Shown here: piece after piece, positions 3 through 10,555 of the stretch
How positions within the stretch are numbered: position 1 is the first letter of the stretch
Layout of the letters: the number at the start of each line of letters is the position of its first letter
Source of the DNA: Sphingobacteriales bacterium
GTDB lineage: Bacteria; Bacteroidota; Bacteroidia; Chitinophagales; Chitinophagaceae
Direction of reading: 5' to 3'
Assembly (NCBI GenBank): GCA_004295245.1
Contig: REAR01000071.1
Span: 1-37,203 of the forward strand
Length of the DNA: 37,203 nucleotides
Program-made: the position numbers and the translations under genes
The notes under the pieces: model-generated
What the model was told of the DNA's origin: nothing
Database searches by the model: none
The model's input: only the letters and a program-made list of their open reading frames with translations

Positions 3-1337
3 ATGAACCAGGCTTTGCAAGAAGTAGTAGTGGTAGGTTATAGCTCTGCACGCAGAAGAGACCTTAGCGGCAGTATTAACATTGAAGATGACAGGGAAGT
101 AAAAACAACAGACTTTGCCCAGGTATTGCAAGGACGGGCTGCAGGGGTGGCCATAACCAACAATAATGGCAGGCCCGGCAGTGCTGCTAAAATAAAAATA
201 CGTGGCAGTAGTAGTGTAAATGGTAATGCAGCGCCTTTGTATGTGGTAGATGGAGCAATTACCAATACACTTCCTGCTTCTGATGATATTGACAATGTAG
301 AAGTACTGAAAGATTTAGCGGCCACCAGCTTATACGGCAGCCGCGCCGCCAACGGTGTGGTAATAGTAACTACCAAAGAACAGGCAGGCAATAACAATAG
401 CAACCTCAATAAAACACCCAAGGGCATCAGTGCGGTGGAGTGGAAGCCTGAGCGCAGTTATTTAAAGAAAATTGCAGCGGCCGATAAAGCCACCCGTTAC
501 CAGCAATACCTTAGCCTGCGCAAAGAATACCTGCTCACCCCTTCTTTTTATTTTGATATGGCTTCTTATTTTTTGCAAAACAATGACACCAGCACCGGCC
601 TGCAAATACTGGGCAACCTGGCCGAACTGGATGTAGAAAACCACGAGCTGTACCGGCAACTGGGTTATACACTAAGAGCCTGCAACCAGCACGAAGAAGC
701 TATTTATATTTTTAGAAAAGTACTGCAATGGCGGGCTATGGAGCCACAAAGCTTTCGTGATTATGGGCTAAGCCTTGCCGGTGGTGGTTATTACCAGCAG
801 GCATTAGATACGTTGTATGCCGCACTCACACACCCATACAGCAACAATGCCCTTAGCAATTACCTGGGTATAGAAGAAGTGATTGTTACAGAAATAAACC
901 AGTTGGTTAGTTTACATAAAGAGCAACTGGATATTACTAAAATAAACAGCCAACTGCTAAGCCCCATGCCGGTAGATGTGCGGGTGGTATTAAACTGGAA
1001 CACCAACGATACCGATATTGATTTATGGGTAACCGACCCCAACAATGAAAAATGTTACTACGCCCATAAGAACACAGCCGTGGGTGGCCGTATATCCGAT
1101 GATATGACGAATGGCTACGGCCCCGAACAATTTATAATAAAGCAGGCCATTAAAGGCACATATAAAATTGAAGTGAATTATTACGGAGAGCGGCAGGTAA
1201 AACTAACCGGCCCCGCCACCGTGCTGGCAGAAGTGTACCTGCATTATGCCAGTGGTAAAGAAGAACGCCGGCTGATAACATTGCAAATGAGTAAAGAAAA
1301 AAAGGCTGGTGTTTTTATAGGCAGTTTTGAATTTTAA
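3..1337 (+). CDS. TonB-plug / DUF2135 multidomain protein, 5' partial
   Basis: This is the C-terminal 444 residues of a larger protein whose start lies left of the window, so the first visible Met is probably internal. Residues 5-125 match the plug domain of SusC/RagA TonB-dependent transporters (EVVVVGYSS, LQGRAAGV, IRGSSSVNG, YVVDGA, LYGSRAANGVVIVTTK). No beta-barrel follows. Residues 150-300 are helical and TPR-like, and residues 310-444 resemble the YfaP/DUF2135 beta domain (VVLNWNTNDTDIDLWVTDP, then GTYKIEVNYYG). A plug detached from its barrel suggests a regulatory or protein-interaction use rather than transport. Related Bacteroidota proteins often carry VIT or von Willebrand domains upstream, but that part cannot be seen here. 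The gene converges on the Bat cluster. Domain calls are fairly sure; the function is unknown. Confidence 0.8.
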   Translation: MNQALQEVVVVGYSSARRRDLSGSINIEDDREVKTTDFAQVLQGRAAGVAITNNNGRPGSAAKIKIRGSSSVNGNAAPLYVVDGAITNTLPASDDIDNVEVLKDLAATSLYGSRAANGVVIVTTKEQAGNNNSNLNKTPKGISAVEWKPERSYLKKIAAADKATRYQQYLSLRKEYLLTPSFYFDMASYFLQNNDTSTGLQILGNLAELDVENHELYRQLGYTLRACNQHEEAIYIFRKVLQWRAMEPQSFRDYGLSLAGGGYYQQALDTLYAALTHPYSNNALSNYLGIEEVIVTEINQLVSLHKEQLDITKINSQLLSPMPVDVRVVLNWNTNDTDIDLWVTDPNNEKCYYAHKNTAVGGRISDDMTNGYGPEQFIIKQAIKGTYKIEVNYYGERQVKLTGPATVLAEVYLHYASGKEERRLITLQMSKEKKAGVFIGSFEF

Positions 1338-1352
1338 AATAAAAGGAATAGT

Positions 1353-1402
1353 GTTACCAGCATAGCTCCGCTATTAAGCATCGTTGCGTCGCACCCTTCA
1401 GC
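1353..1402 (+). repeat. Dispersed repeat copy R1, tail type B
   Basis: The head GTTACCAGC is followed by the exact core GTTGCGTCGCA (1383-1393) and the tail CCCTTCAGC. It faces copy R2 at 1711-1770 as an inverted pair around the two hairpins. Confidence 0.85.
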
Positions 1403-1477: not shown

Positions 1478-1540
1478 CCAGCTTGCTGACGTTTGCCCCT
1501 ATCTGGTCTAAGTATGTACTCTTAACATTCAGCAAGCTGG
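1478..1540. repeat. Inverted repeat, 12-bp perfect arms
   Basis: CCAGCTTGCTGA at 1478-1489 is the exact reverse complement of TCAGCAAGCTGG at 1529-1540, with a 39-nt loop. The right arm overlaps the first bases of the larger hairpin at 1537, so the two structures cannot both form fully. Confidence 0.85.
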
Positions 1541-1654
1541 CGCAGGAATGAGGCAAGGGTTTTGTGCTTTAGCTTCCTGTGCCCAAATATAATTCTGCCA
1601 ACCTCGAAGGCACAGGAAGCCAGCACACATTGCTTCGCCTCATTCCTGCGCCAG
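1537..1654. repeat. Long imperfect hairpin, 18-bp and 12-bp perfect arms
   Basis: The outer arms CTGGCGCAGGAATGAGGC (1537-1554) and GCCTCATTCCTGCGCCAG (1637-1654) are perfectly complementary over 18 bp. Inside them GCTTCCTGTGCC (1572-1583) pairs perfectly with GGCACAGGAAGC (1609-1620). The stretch between is partly complementary, giving one hairpin of about 118 nt with a 25-nt loop. It could be a MITE-like element, a structured RNA or a strong bidirectional terminator. Confidence 0.9.
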
Positions 1655-1710
1655 ACTACCTTTTTATGGCCTTTGCATACTTGGACTATTAGGGGGGTTA
1701 AAGCTTCAAC

Positions 1711-1770
1711 CGTACAAGTGTGCGACGCAACAATGCCTCACCGGAGTTACCCCGGTTGGTTACCAAAAAA
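1711..1770 (-). repeat. Dispersed repeat copy R2, tail type A
   Basis: On the minus strand the head GGTAACCAACC leads to the exact core (1721-1731 on the + strand) and the tail CACTTGTACG. It is in inverted orientation to R1. Confidence 0.85.
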
Positions 1771-1780
1771 CAACTAGCAC

Positions 1781-1996
1781 TTACGGAAATGTTCTGAAGA
1801 GGGTGTGGCGTAATAGTATCTCCAGCAGCAAAAAGAAAAGGGCGGCTAAAGCAATGGGAAAAAATTTTTCGTTGTAGCGTTTTAAAGCAGTTACTTCTAC
1901 CCGGGTTTTTTCCAGCTTATCTATTTCACTATAAATATTTTTTAGTCCTTCGTTATCTTTTGCCCTGAAGTACTTGCCACCGGTGTTTCTCATCAA
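1781..1996 (-). pseudogene. BatA C-terminal fragment, out of frame
   Basis: This frame encodes the missing end of the BatA-like protein: the last strand and helix of the von Willebrand domain (NTGGKYFRA, then LKNIYSEIDKLEKT) and the C-terminal membrane helix (about residues 46-62). It overlaps the N-terminal part (1953-2765) in another frame. The coding is intact up to the join, so the break is recent or a sequence error. A purine-rich GGGAGAAAG lies about 10 nt before the ATG at 1993, so separate translation of this fragment cannot be excluded, but I think a broken gene is more likely. In relatives batB usually follows; here the cluster ends in the repeat region. Confidence 0.75.
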
Positions 1997-2765
1997 TATT
2001 TACTTTCTCCCGCTGCAGCACTACGCCGCCGCCAGGTGTTTGCACCGGCACGTTGGCCATGCCTTCTGTACCCACGCCAATGGTATACACTCTTACGCCG
2101 GTTGCTTTGGCCAGCTCCTTAGCCGTTAGTGGGGGTATTTGCCCGCCGTTATTTTCTCCATCGGTTAATAAAATAGCCACTTTGCTTTTAGATTGTGAGG
2201 CCCGTAACCGGTCTACACTGGTAGCAAGGCCAGAACCGATGGCCGTACCATCTTCCAGCAAACCACTTTGTATATTGTATATCTGAGAACGCAGCACATT
2301 CTGATCGGTAGTAAGCGGACAAAGGGTAAAACTTTCTCCGGAAAAAATAACCACACCAATACGATCTGTGGGGCGGCCGGCTGCAAAGTTTGCGGCTACA
2401 TCTTTGGCCGCTTCTAATCGGTTGGGTGTAAAATCCTGCGCCAGCATACTGCCGCTAACATCAATACATAAAATTATGTCTATACCTTCTCCGCTCACCA
2501 ATTCTTCATCGTTACGGGTTTGTGGCCTTGCCAAAGCTATAATAATGCAGCTGATAGCCAGCATTCTTAAAGCCGTTAAAAGCCAGCGCAGGCTGCTCTT
2601 CCACGATCGGATATTTTTTATACCCGCAATAGAAGAAACCGTAATGCTGGCCTTTTGCTTTTTGCCACCTGTAAATTGCCACCACAGTAATATTGGCACC
2701 AATGCAAACAATGCAAAGAACCATGGTTGCGCAAAGCTGATATGTTGAAAGTATTCTGTTATCAC
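1953..2765 (-). CDS. batA: BatA-like von Willebrand factor A protein, frameshifted
   Basis: This is the N-terminal 270 residues of a membrane-anchored VWA protein of the Bacteroides aerotolerance (Bat) type. It has membrane helices at about 14-30 and 60-78. The metal-site motif DVSGS is at 102-106, with Thr174 and the D of LTDGEN at 202, so the MIDAS is complete. The frame ends in HRWQVLQGKR instead of the expected family continuation. That continuation appears in another frame at 1781-1996. From the usual family spacing after NIDE I estimate a deletion of about 23 nt near 1990. It is the last gene of the moxR-DUF58-BatD-like-batA cluster, 6 nt after its neighbour. The cluster is thought to act in envelope stress or complex assembly. 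Family certain; functional state doubtful. Confidence 0.8.
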   Translation of the reverse strand: MITEYFQHISFAQPWFFALFALVPILLWWQFTGGKKQKASITVSSIAGIKNIRSWKSSLRWLLTALRMLAISCIIIALARPQTRNDEELVSGEGIDIILCIDVSGSMLAQDFTPNRLEAAKDVAANFAAGRPTDRIGVVIFSGESFTLCPLTTDQNVLRSQIYNIQSGLLEDGTAIGSGLATSVDRLRASQSKSKVAILLTDGENNGGQIPPLTAKELAKATGVRVYTIGVGTEGMANVPVQTPGGGVVLQREKVNIDEKHRWQVLQGKR

Positions 2766-3687: not shown

Positions 3688-4557
3688 TCAGGCCCTTCCA
3701 ATAAAAAATTTCTGGAGCACTTTTACATAATCTTCATCGGTGCGTACGTGCAATAAATCACAGCCGCTTTTTAAAAAGGCACTTTTACACCAGTCGGTAT
3801 GCTTAAAAAAATGTTCTTCGTATTGTTTGCGCACCCAATAATCGCTGCTGTCAATAATATGTTGTTCTCCGGTTTCTGCATCGTTTACCTGTAGCAGGCC
3901 GGCATCGGGCAACTGCATTTCCATAGGGTCGTACACTTTAATACCAATGATATCATGCTTGCGGCCTACTACTTTTAATGCATCTTCAAACCGGTGGTCC
4001 ATAAAATCGCTTAGCACAAAAGCAATACTGCGTTGGCGGGTGGTGCCATTAAAACGCCGCAGGGCTTCTGCTATTTGTGTGCCTTTGCTTTTAGGTTCGG
4101 CAGTTAATAGCTCTCGTACTATATACAACGCATGTTGTTTGCCTTTTTTGGGTGGTATGAATAACTCAATTTTATCGCTAAAGAAAATAACGCCTACTTT
4201 ATCGTTATTGCTAATAGCAGAAAAGGTAAGCACGGCGGCTATTTCTGTTACCAGATCTTTCTTGGTGGCATTTACGGTGCCAAATAATGAGCTGGCACTG
4301 ATGTCTATCATAAGCATTACGGTTAACTCTCTTTCTTCTTCAAACAGTTTGGTAAATGGGTGGGAGAAGCGGGCACTTACGTTCCAGTCTATAAACCGAA
4401 TGTCATCACCAGCATAATATTCTCTTACTTCTCTAAAGCTCATACCCCTGCCTTTGAAGGCAGAATGATACTCTCCGGTAAAAAGGTGCTGGGTAATTTT
4501 CTTACTTTTTATTTCCAGCTCTCTTACTTTTTTTAATATTTCGGTAGTGGTGAGCAA
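3688..4557 (-). CDS. DUF58 domain protein (von Willebrand-like)
   Basis: A 289-residue DUF58 protein. The family signature (SFREVREYYAGDDIRFIDWN) spans about residues 40-59. A VWA-like fold follows, with LMIDISAS at about 87-94 in the metal-site position. There are no membrane helices, so it is probably cytoplasmic or peripheral. DUF58 proteins are regularly encoded next to MoxR ATPases and are thought to be partners or substrates of that chaperone-like ATPase. Here moxR lies upstream, 102 nt away, with a dispersed repeat in the gap. The BatD-like gene begins 19 nt downstream. Family certain; biochemical role inferred from context. Confidence 0.9.
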   Translation of the reverse strand: MLTTTEILKKVRELEIKSKKITQHLFTGEYHSAFKGRGMSFREVREYYAGDDIRFIDWNVSARFSHPFTKLFEEERELTVMLMIDISASSLFGTVNATKKDLVTEIAAVLTFSAISNNDKVGVIFFSDKIELFIPPKKGKQHALYIVRELLTAEPKSKGTQIAEALRRFNGTTRQRSIAFVLSDFMDHRFEDALKVVGRKHDIIGIKVYDPMEMQLPDAGLLQVNDAETGEQHIIDSSDYWVRKQYEEHFFKHTDWCKSAFLKSGCDLLHVRTDEDYVKVLQKFFIGRA

Positions 4558-4589
4558 ACAGGTGTATTTAATTTTATTAGTTGCTATTT

Positions 4590-4650
4590 GTACAACAGTT
4601 GAAGTGATTGCGACGCAACGATGATGCCATGAAAAACCATTGCTGGTATT
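4590..4650 (-). repeat. Dispersed repeat copy R3, tail type C
   Basis: On the minus strand the head ACCAGCAATGG leads to the exact core and the tail AATCACTTCAAC. It sits between moxR and the DUF58 gene, inside an otherwise compact gene cluster. Confidence 0.75.
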
Positions 4651-9103: not shown

Positions 9104-10555
9104 TTACTGCCCTTGTGCCAGGCTATATGCTTTTTTACCTGCCCACATATTTAACACCTCCATACTGCACACTTTAAAATTTGCAGTTAAGCTTTGGTAT
9201 AATGCTACAATATGCTGTTGTGTTAAAGGTGCATCATTGATACTTTCAAAACGGCAACGGTATTGATTTACTACATTGGTAAACACACTGCCTTTGGGCC
9301 ATACTTGTGTGCCGCGGTTAGTAATGGTTACCAGCTTGTACAAACTACCTTCATGCAGGAGGCACTTGTTGGCAACATCTAAGGGTTGTTCTGAACTTTC
9401 AATAAAAAAGTCGGCCCCTACAATGGTTTCTTCTTCCATTTCTTTACTCATTATAAGAGGGTTCTTATCCAATTTATAAATGGTTTGAGTAATGGGTTTG
9501 TTTGGCAATAGTGGTTTAAGGCCATGTGCCGGTGTTTTACCAAAATTGGCAATAATTGTATTGGCAAATTGGGTGGTATTTACAGATGGTTTTGTTTTAT
9601 CTCCAAAGTCGCCGGTGTGTACGCCTTGCTCTAACGTATATAGCAAAGCATTCTCAATAACAGCGGCATTTTCCATTAAACCCAGGTGGCGCAGCATTGC
9701 TAAGCCACTTAATAATAATGCTGTTGGGTTGGCAATATTTTTACCCATTATATCTGGCGCTGTACCGTGTACGGCTTCAAATATGCAAATATGGTCGCCA
9801 ATGTTTGCAGAAGGTGCAAAGCCTAAGCCTCCTACCAAACCGGCACACAAATCACTTACAATATCTCCCTGCAGGTTAGTAAGCACCACCACATCAAACT
9901 CATGCGGCCTAACCACCAGCTTCATGCATAAATCATCTACTATTACATCATCGGCTTTCAGCTCAGGATATTCTTTTGCCACTTCATAAAAACATTCTAA
10001 AAAAAGCCCGTCTGTAATTTTCATGATGTTGGCTTTGTGACCGCAAGTAATGCGGCGGGCGCCTTTTTTTTGCGCCATTTCAAAAGCATATTTTATTACC
10101 TGCATACTTCCGGGGCGGGTAATAAAGCGGCGGCCCAATGCCACATCATGGGTAAGCATATGCTCTATACCACCATAAGTATCTTCAATGTTTTCTCTTA
10201 CAATGGTAATATCAATAGGTATACCGGCTTTACTAAATACTGTATCTACGCCGTGTAATGTTTGAAATACTCTTTTGTTAGCATAAGTGTTCCATGTTTT
10301 GCGGGCAGTAACGTTTACGCTTTTTACACCTTTTCCTTTGGGTGTTTCCATGGGGCCTTTAAATAAAATACCCAGGCTTTCTATAGTTTGTTGCGCTTCG
10401 GGCGTCATACCGTTGCTGAAGCCTTTATCAAATACCCACTTTCCCATATCAACAAATTCATACTCCAACGGTACTTTATTGGCTGAAAAAATATCTAACA
10501 CTGCTTGCATTATTTCCGGGCCTATGCCATCTCCTTTTGCTACTGCTATTTTCAT
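9104..10555 (-). CDS. icd: Isocitrate dehydrogenase (NADP-type, Thermus-like long form)
   Basis: A 483-residue isocitrate dehydrogenase that oxidatively decarboxylates isocitrate to 2-oxoglutarate in the citric acid cycle. The beta-decarboxylating dehydrogenase core is clear: GDGIGPE at 8-14, KSVNVTARK at 78-86, RENIEDTYGGIEH at 120-132, NLQGDIVSDL at 227-236 and HGTAPD at 263-268. After about residue 340 there is an extra domain of about 140 residues, typical of the longer Thermus/Bacteroidota form and absent from the E. coli enzyme. Cofactor choice cannot be proved by eye. A good promoter lies about 70 nt upstream, and a terminator follows. Confidence 0.92.
   Translation of the reverse strand: MKIAVAKGDGIGPEIMQAVLDIFSANKVPLEYEFVDMGKWVFDKGFSNGMTPEAQQTIESLGILFKGPMETPKGKGVKSVNVTARKTWNTYANKRVFQTLHGVDTVFSKAGIPIDITIVRENIEDTYGGIEHMLTHDVALGRRFITRPGSMQVIKYAFEMAQKKGARRITCGHKANIMKITDGLFLECFYEVAKEYPELKADDVIVDDLCMKLVVRPHEFDVVVLTNLQGDIVSDLCAGLVGGLGFAPSANIGDHICIFEAVHGTAPDIMGKNIANPTALLLSGLAMLRHLGLMENAAVIENALLYTLEQGVHTGDFGDKTKPSVNTTQFANTIIANFGKTPAHGLKPLLPNKPITQTIYKLDKNPLIMSKEMEEETIVGADFFIESSEQPLDVANKCLLHEGSLYKLVTITNRGTQVWPKGSVFTNVVNQYRCRFESINDAPLTQQHIVALYQSLTANFKVCSMEVLNMWAGKKAYSLAQGQ

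Follow-up and report, generated by a model that had tools for sequence, protein, structure and literature searches.

The gap behind batA in this Sphingobacteriales genome is crowded with long, overlapping hairpins, and the question it raises is what kind of element they form. Analysis of the window, meaning the whole 37,203-nt stretch of DNA, points to a REP doublet of two inverted, convergent units. The arrangement resembles a REPIN or BIME, and the doublet very probably belongs to a family that lacks the GTAG tag and whose cognate transposases form one clade of Chitinophagaceae RAYTs (REP-associated tyrosine transposases).

Stems and fold of the region downstream of batA

The preliminary description reported three perfect stems at 1478–1654, and all three are present: 1478–1489 with 1529–1540 (12 bp), 1537–1554 with 1637–1654 (18 bp), and, enclosed by the latter, 1572–1583 with 1609–1620 (12 bp), which is also recovered inside an 81% stem. 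The window contains six perfect inverted repeats whose arms measure 12 nt or more and whose loops do not exceed 100 nt, against a mean of 0.675 and a maximum of 3 in 40 dinucleotide shuffles, and three of the six fall within the 177-nt stretch 1478–1654. Folding of 1470–1660 as RNA, a check suggested at the outset, gives −84.9 kcal/mol (z −7.84), with none of 200 shuffles as low, and the fold of the doublet region is very stable on both strands. Elsewhere in the window, a further perfect inverted repeat with 16-bp arms and a 96-nt loop lies between listed ORFs (31796–31811/31908–31923).

The coincidence of two unrelated inverted repeats has virtually no probability as an account of the whole region. 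A lone 12-bp stem such as 1478–1489/1529–1540 is nothing unusual in 37 kb of sequence, as the mean of 0.675 per shuffle indicates, but arms of at least 18 nt occur in 0 of 40 dinucleotide shuffles of the window and conserved copies exist in other genera. Chance is refuted for the 18-bp structure and is plausible only for the 12-bp stem 1478–1489/1529–1540.

The region contains two convergent copies of one unit

Within 1496–1695 a single ~89-nt unit is present twice, the copies converging on opposite strands with 21 nt between them, and the 18-bp and inner 12-bp stems are the pairings between these two inverted copies. Aligned copies define the layout of the unit, in which a linker joins the 5′ module CCCC...TAGTCCAAGTATG to a hairpin of 10 bp, GGCGCAGGAA/TTCCTGTGCC (GGCGC.../...GTGCC). 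The module, common to both strands (1496–1516 on the plus strand, 1676–1695 on the minus strand), and the shared unit to which it belongs were absent from the earlier account. Each window copy also folds alone, 1539–1548 pairing with 1574–1583 and 1643–1652 with 1609–1618. A covariance model, R1, was built from five copies that include both window units, whose scores in the following list are therefore matches by construction.

1478..1540, plus strand: first hairpin of the preliminary description, 12-bp arms 1478–1489/1529–1540, one arm outside the ~89-nt unit
1496..1516, plus strand: left unit, 5′ module, reading CCCC...GGTCTAAGTATG (from sequence)
1497..1585, plus strand: left unit of the doublet, comprising module, linker and hairpin (model R1, 89.5 bits)
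1539..1548, plus strand: left hairpin, 5′ arm, reading GGCGCAGGAA and pairing with 1574–1583 (from sequence and stem covariation)
1574..1583, plus strand: left hairpin, 3′ arm, reading TTCCTGTGCC (from sequence, covariation and doublet pairing counts)
1607..1695, minus strand: right unit, convergent with the left (model R1, 98.8 bits)
1609..1618, minus strand: right hairpin, 3′ arm, reading TTCCTGTGCC on that strand (from sequence and covariation)
1643..1652, minus strand: right hairpin, 5′ arm, reading GGCGCAGGAA on that strand and pairing with 1609–1618 (from sequence and covariation)
1676..1695, minus strand: right unit, 5′ module, reading CCCCTAATAGTCCAAGTATG on that strand (from sequence)

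Taken literally, the earlier statement that the two overlapping hairpins cannot both be fully formed holds, but in the minimum-energy fold the first is simply trimmed to 10 bp while the second stays whole. A switch between the two is unsupported, the stem 1478–1489/1529–1540 having no counterpart in the four other aligned doublets and one of its arms lying outside the unit.

In many copies the module is 20 nt long and stands ~20 nt upstream of the hairpin. At the hairpin foot, compared across 60 hairpins, position −1 is T in 95% and position −2 is C in 85%, while positions −6 to −3 most often carry G, T, T and A, respectively, at 40–57%; a GT[AG]G tag was not found at the foot of these 60 hairpins. 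A laxer comparison of modules with hairpin feet gave 83 of 83, but its short pattern would match many stretches by chance.

The arrangement of modules also bears on whether the locus is a MITE derived from a conventional DDE transposon, with the 20-nt module CCCC...TAGTCCAAGTATG as terminal inverted repeat and the hairpin as internal filler. The window doublet does carry the module at each outer end, the two modules being inverted relative to one another, and in the stretch L077 single hairpins bear modules on both sides. Nevertheless, the module tracks the hairpin core, which lies 3′ of it in 42 of 46 distinct modules from the fetched stretches (shuffles, 0 of 46), hairpins without a module are present in L082 and L087, and RAYT genes recur beside the unit, all of which makes a DDE-type MITE very improbable.

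Genomic setting and the enclosing palindrome

The doublet lies between two convergent genes and inside a larger repeat, arranged as follows.

3..1337, plus strand: upstream neighbour, a TonB plug/DUF2135 protein, transcribed towards the element (domain scan)
1354..1402, plus strand: left half of an abundant ~100-bp palindrome, designated REP2 in this analysis (the dispersed repeat of the preliminary description)
1711..1764, plus strand: right half of the REP2 palindrome, the doublet sitting in its 325-nt centre
1781..2765, minus strand: batA, with BatA and VWA domains, convergent with the upstream gene (domain scan and a relative's ortholog)

The ORF at 3–1337 joins a TonB-receptor plug to DUF2135, with a TPR match below the cut-off. 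The batA gene itself seems broken near 1985: its reading frame runs over 1953–2765 on the minus strand, and the C-terminal part, at ~1781–1985, lies in another frame relative to the ortholog of a relative, either as a real break or as an assembly error. In the nearest relative with a close batA, the neighbouring gene is different and synteny differs, so an empty site beside batA, which would point to movement of the doublet, was not found there.

The inverted pair of a dispersed repeat that had been described as enclosing the hairpins (1378–1413/1701–1736) is real, but its members are the two halves of one palindromic repeat. REP2 is a near-perfect ~100-bp palindrome, GTTACCAGCAG...GTGCGACGCAAC...CTGCTGGTTACC, whose centres measure from 14 to more than 100 nt and are often palindromic again. 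Other half motifs lie at 4608, 9052, 11153, 14152, 14578, 17836, 18982, 25273, 32104, 34279 and 35531; with 13 half motifs in the window alone, the palindrome occupies much of the intergenic space. REP2-like sequence is found in 16 of 58 relatives. The other unit locus of the host genome, C154, likewise sits just inside a REP2 half, and the placement of both loci within REP2 may reflect an insertion preference or, REP2 being very common, chance. In an inverted-flank test of 45 element clusters, the window scored 22 against a maximum of 13 in its 60 shuffles; L082, L044 and L081 exceeded their own shuffles by one or two points, as expected by chance among 45.

The position between convergent genes, together with the very stable fold on both strands, would fit an RNA-level structure, whether a terminator, an mRNA-end stabiliser or a small RNA, and REPs between convergent genes are reported in other species (PMC3733652). 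Set against this are the lack of any Rfam match in the window at gathering score, the lack of a terminator-like site with a T run in 1250–1900, and the occurrence of the unit in varied gene contexts, so that an RNA function carries very little probability as the identity of the element; an RNA effect could arise as a side effect of the unit. The preliminary description had offered three options: a folded RNA, a MITE and a recombination site read as single strand. The folded RNA is unsupported, whereas a miniature mobile element recognised as folded single-stranded DNA comes close to the best reading, in which a Y1/HUH transposase serves the REP doublet.

Distribution of the unit

Searching the host genome with 1340–1800 retrieves a second place, C154:40–128, which is 90% identical to the query's right part, and searching with 1480–1700 additionally shows the two halves matching each other in inverse orientation. 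The window's genome holds three unit copies at two places. Matches were obtained in four of the 58 relatives searched, those in L040 and L041 being copies and those in L042 and L043, which lie inside genes, looking by eye like chance. With the covariance model, the unit is detected in 69 of 394 genomes of Chitinophagaceae at E ≤ 0.01, a threshold at which about four genomes are expected by chance, the E-values of the model being rough. A scan of named genomes for the unit pattern returned four stretches, three from Chitinophagaceae bacterium and one from Taibaiella soli, and the exact pattern is absent from viral_contigs. Copies exist in other genera, and the similarity search that had been proposed to look for them did not end in their absence, the outcome named as a refutation.

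Copy numbers per genome reach at least 12, with few candidates scored, and the densest stretch carries 22 unit matches in 12 kb of genome G082 (L081). The unit is extragenic: 93 of 94 matches lie no more than half inside an ORF of at least 150 aa, and such ORFs make up 72% of the stretches. Unit pairs less than 150 nt apart are convergent in 15 cases (the window included), tandem in 21 and divergent in 6, and the 21-nt gap of the window doublet is shared by six pairs of L081.

Gene neighbourhoods of the unit

Several neighbourhoods were recorded in passing. In genome G183, L077 4223–10305 is an island of small genes split by unit copies and containing Imm26 and SUKH-3 immunity domains; two related proteins within it (4223–4627 and 9280–9717) resemble one beside the unit in another genus (L085 6679–7098). 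In genome G027, L044 9163–14571 presents an Ntox15 effector with its Tdi1 immunity gene, followed by a pair of units and, beyond them, by two tyrosine recombinases in tandem. Defence-like genes adjoining units at L078 13691–16921, L091 6522–7616 and L093 5837–6820 encode two SIR2_2 proteins and a DNA methylase.

The attC sites of integrons are single-strand hairpins with an asymmetric stem, and recombinase-associated immunity arrays (rAID) occur in Bacteroides. The unit resembles attC in forming a single-strand hairpin with an asymmetric stem, and it could be an attC-like, single-strand recombination site of a cassette system that shuffles small genes such as immunity genes. Seven minus-strand copies in L077 lie between small genes, two of which carry the Imm26 and SUKH-3 domains; copies in L044 stand beside Ntox15/Tdi1 and the two tyrosine recombinases; and copies in L045 and L086 stand beside genes that resemble, by eye, RHS C-terminal parts, for which Pfam gave no family. 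Unlike attC, however, the unit has no tied integrase in the inspected regions and forms gene-free tandem arrays, in L082 and L087. Copies also lie between ordinary genes in L078 and L080, tyrosine recombinases were noticed in L044 alone, by inspection, and RAYTs recur as neighbours, which leaves a cassette site very improbable. Genes near and far from units yielded 71 and 93 Pfam families, respectively, counted as families and not as proteins and compared over the best 25 of each, figures from which an enrichment of immunity genes near the unit does not emerge. The corresponding PADLOC counts were 76 and 5, many of the 76 being models of one methyltransferase and 25 of them being compared. The near set comprised 56 of 61 ORFs, four RAYTs and one 2,127-aa ORF being left aside, and the far set 56 of 107 ORFs, namely 61 random draws minus the last five.

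Covariation and the form of the hairpin that is kept

Across 95 unit matches (91 distinct, from 21 stretches), 95.5% of stem cells are paired and double changes occur in 8 of the 10 pairs. Four of five covariation measures beat all 500 shuffles, and the fifth, further pair types, was reached by 30 of 500. Fitting the alignment to the model favours structure, and the stronger evidence accordingly comes from the slid control stems, which are 38–56% paired, and from 97 double-change cells. The five starting copies alone yield weak covariation at 2 pairs, a level that 100 of 500 shuffles attain. Among six copies folded alone, that of L041 does no better than shuffles, and the left window copy with its module included likewise does no better. 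The covariation search called for in the preliminary description thus shows copies in other genera staying complementary through compensating changes, the opposite of the lack of complementary arms in relatives that was to have refuted the structure.

For REP doublets, two folds have been proposed, of which the form with separate hairpins is open to the transposase (PMC3116915). In the 15 convergent doublets studied here, stems within a copy retain 9.67 of 10 pairs and stems between copies 8.87, and in the nine doublets whose 5′ arms differ the values are 9.44/10 within copies versus 8.11/10 between them. The clearest cases, in L080, L088 and L093, have arms that differ and that are each complementary within their own unit, while two pairs of L081 show better pairing between copies than within them. 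These observations indicate that the within-copy hairpin is the form kept across relatives, suggestively rather than strongly, because several of the nine doublets are close to one another (three in L081, two in L093).

A clade of RAYTs as the likely transposase partner

RAYT genes lie inside element clusters in 7 of 17 stretches around unit matches (L077, L078, L080, L081, L082, L087 and L090). All six RAYTs scanned have NCBIfam NF047646 (REP-associated tyrosine transposase) as their best match, three of them above the cut-off. Starting from the element, a RAYT stretch is found within ~1.5 kb at 6 of the 29 best element loci, one of them a fragment; the query for this search, A5, had itself been assembled from element-adjacent RAYTs, whose genomes account for three of these six positives. 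Starting from the transposase, 17 of the 30 best RAYT loci hold unit matches at E ≤ 0.1. Inverted flanks, with a plus copy upstream and a minus copy downstream within 400 nt, occur at 8 of these 30 loci (6 at E ≤ 0.01), and seven more have a unit on one side.

A tree of 42 RAYT rows, one of them a duplicate place, separates into clade A and clade B with 100/99 support. Units lie within 400 nt of 15 of 29 distinct clade-A genes versus 0 of 12 distinct clade-B genes (p = 0.001), 10 of the latter being hand-chosen loci. Omission of the duplicate and of the long-branched L105 gives a split support of 100/100 and counts of 14/28 versus 0/12. Without the loci that supplied the query the counts are 10/24 versus 0/10 (p = 0.017), with E ≤ 0.01 matches only they are 11/29 versus 0/12 (p = 0.018), and with both restrictions together they are 7/24 versus 0/10 (p = 0.08). 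The unit is likely specific to clade-A RAYTs, a conclusion that rests on small numbers, and 14 of the 29 clade-A genes have no unit match within 400 nt.

Clade-B RAYTs were rejected as partners: another long inverted repeat lies beside the gene at three of four inspected loci, the fourth, L107, having a weaker 16-nt pair, and units within 400 nt are lacking. L107 and L139, both of clade B, do hold units, but farther from the gene. Among twelve additional RAYT loci, of which 11 belong to clade B and one to clade A, 11 lack a unit match, and in the twelfth, L139, the units lie at least ~840 nt from the gene. The nearness of clade-B RAYTs to units in L077 and L080 is probably clustering and not cognacy, since the genes of clade B are accompanied by other long repeats at three of the four inspected loci. 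Several copies of another repeat family, CGGTTGGTG...CACCAACCG, were observed beside clade-B RAYTs (L139 800–2700, L132 1470–2308).

Genomes with a RAYT of either clade make up 60 of 69 element-positive and 216 of 325 element-negative genomes (p = 0.0005), nine of the 69 showing no RAYT. In the window's genome, no RAYT was detected by profile at E ≤ 10, although the same profile finds one in 276 of the 394 family genomes; with an assembly that is 96% complete, this absence is likely but not certain. The sole Y1 transposase found there is of the IS200 type. With three copies and no RAYT found in their genome, the window's copies are probably passive.

Relation to known systems

The closest counterparts are the structures flanking TnpA_REP of subclass 2.6 (RAYT group 5), a mostly Bacteroidetes subclass in which atypical structures without GT[AG]G, identified by manual inspection, accompany the transposase and have further copies genome-wide (PMC6006769). 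The unit matches them in its Bacteroidota host, its GT[AG]G-less hairpin, its adjacency to RAYTs and its copies elsewhere (PMC6006769). The transposase motifs tabulated for the subclass are NH[LIV]H, WQ, YIH[QN]NP and SS (PMC6006769). YIHNNP is shared by many clade-A RAYTs, many clade-A RAYTs have TSHxH where the table has NHxH, and SS is present in seven aligned RAYTs. A paper naming the ~89-nt unit was not found in the literature listings searched, the comparison covering parts of the text of PMC6006769, whose supplement lists such structures. On the best reading, the unit is a further member of this known GTAG-less, RAYT-associated kind in Bacteroidetes and not a classical GTAG REP, a placement based on its host, its lack of GTAG and its RAYT neighbourhood.

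Like a REPIN, the doublet consists of two inverted units able to form either one long or two separate hairpins (PMC3116915), and the pairing of two inverted REPs into a long hairpin is found in the window fold and in the 15 convergent pairs. It differs from a REPIN in that the unit contains no GTAG-type REP, that each unit has its own complete hairpin and often an upstream module, and that 9 of the 15 doublets have differing arms (PMC3116915). With BIMEs and classical GTAG REPs, the family shares extragenic palindromes, inverted and tandem grouping, and a RAYT partly flanked by inverted copies, but it lacks the GT(A/G)G head, and the window's genome has few copies and no RAYT that could be found, whereas REPs are usually abundant (PMC2817692). 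In the sections of that work drawn on here, RAYTs flanked by inverted REPs are described, with the qualifying cases confined to gammaproteobacteria (PMC2817692).

Proposed mechanism and implications

The doublet of RAYT-associated units suggests a mechanism in which a DNA strand that becomes transiently single would expose the within-copy hairpins, which a RAYT would bind, cut and rejoin, so that the unit would spread. The long hairpin formed between copies would then represent the silent state of the unit. In the window's genome, where no RAYT was found, the two loci may be immobile remnants or immigrants, and their sole likely effect at present would be passive, through structure where two convergent genes have their 3′ ends.

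A more specific version, tentative and rather unlikely, supposes a two-part site, in which a single-stranded module, CCCCnnnTRGTCYAAGTATG, situated ~20 nt 5′ of the hairpin replaces the GTAG foot as the cleavage guide and in which selection acts on the separate hairpins and not on the long doublet hairpin, as the mixed doublets with unlike arms would show. If the site were built in this way, these RAYTs would read a distant guide. Several doublets have two unlike arms and so provide a natural test between the two folds of a REP doublet, one long hairpin or two separate hairpins. The striking double hairpin behind batA is accounted for without a riboswitch, and an atypical class of REPs gains a concrete sequence, a structure backed by covariation and a likely transposase clade.
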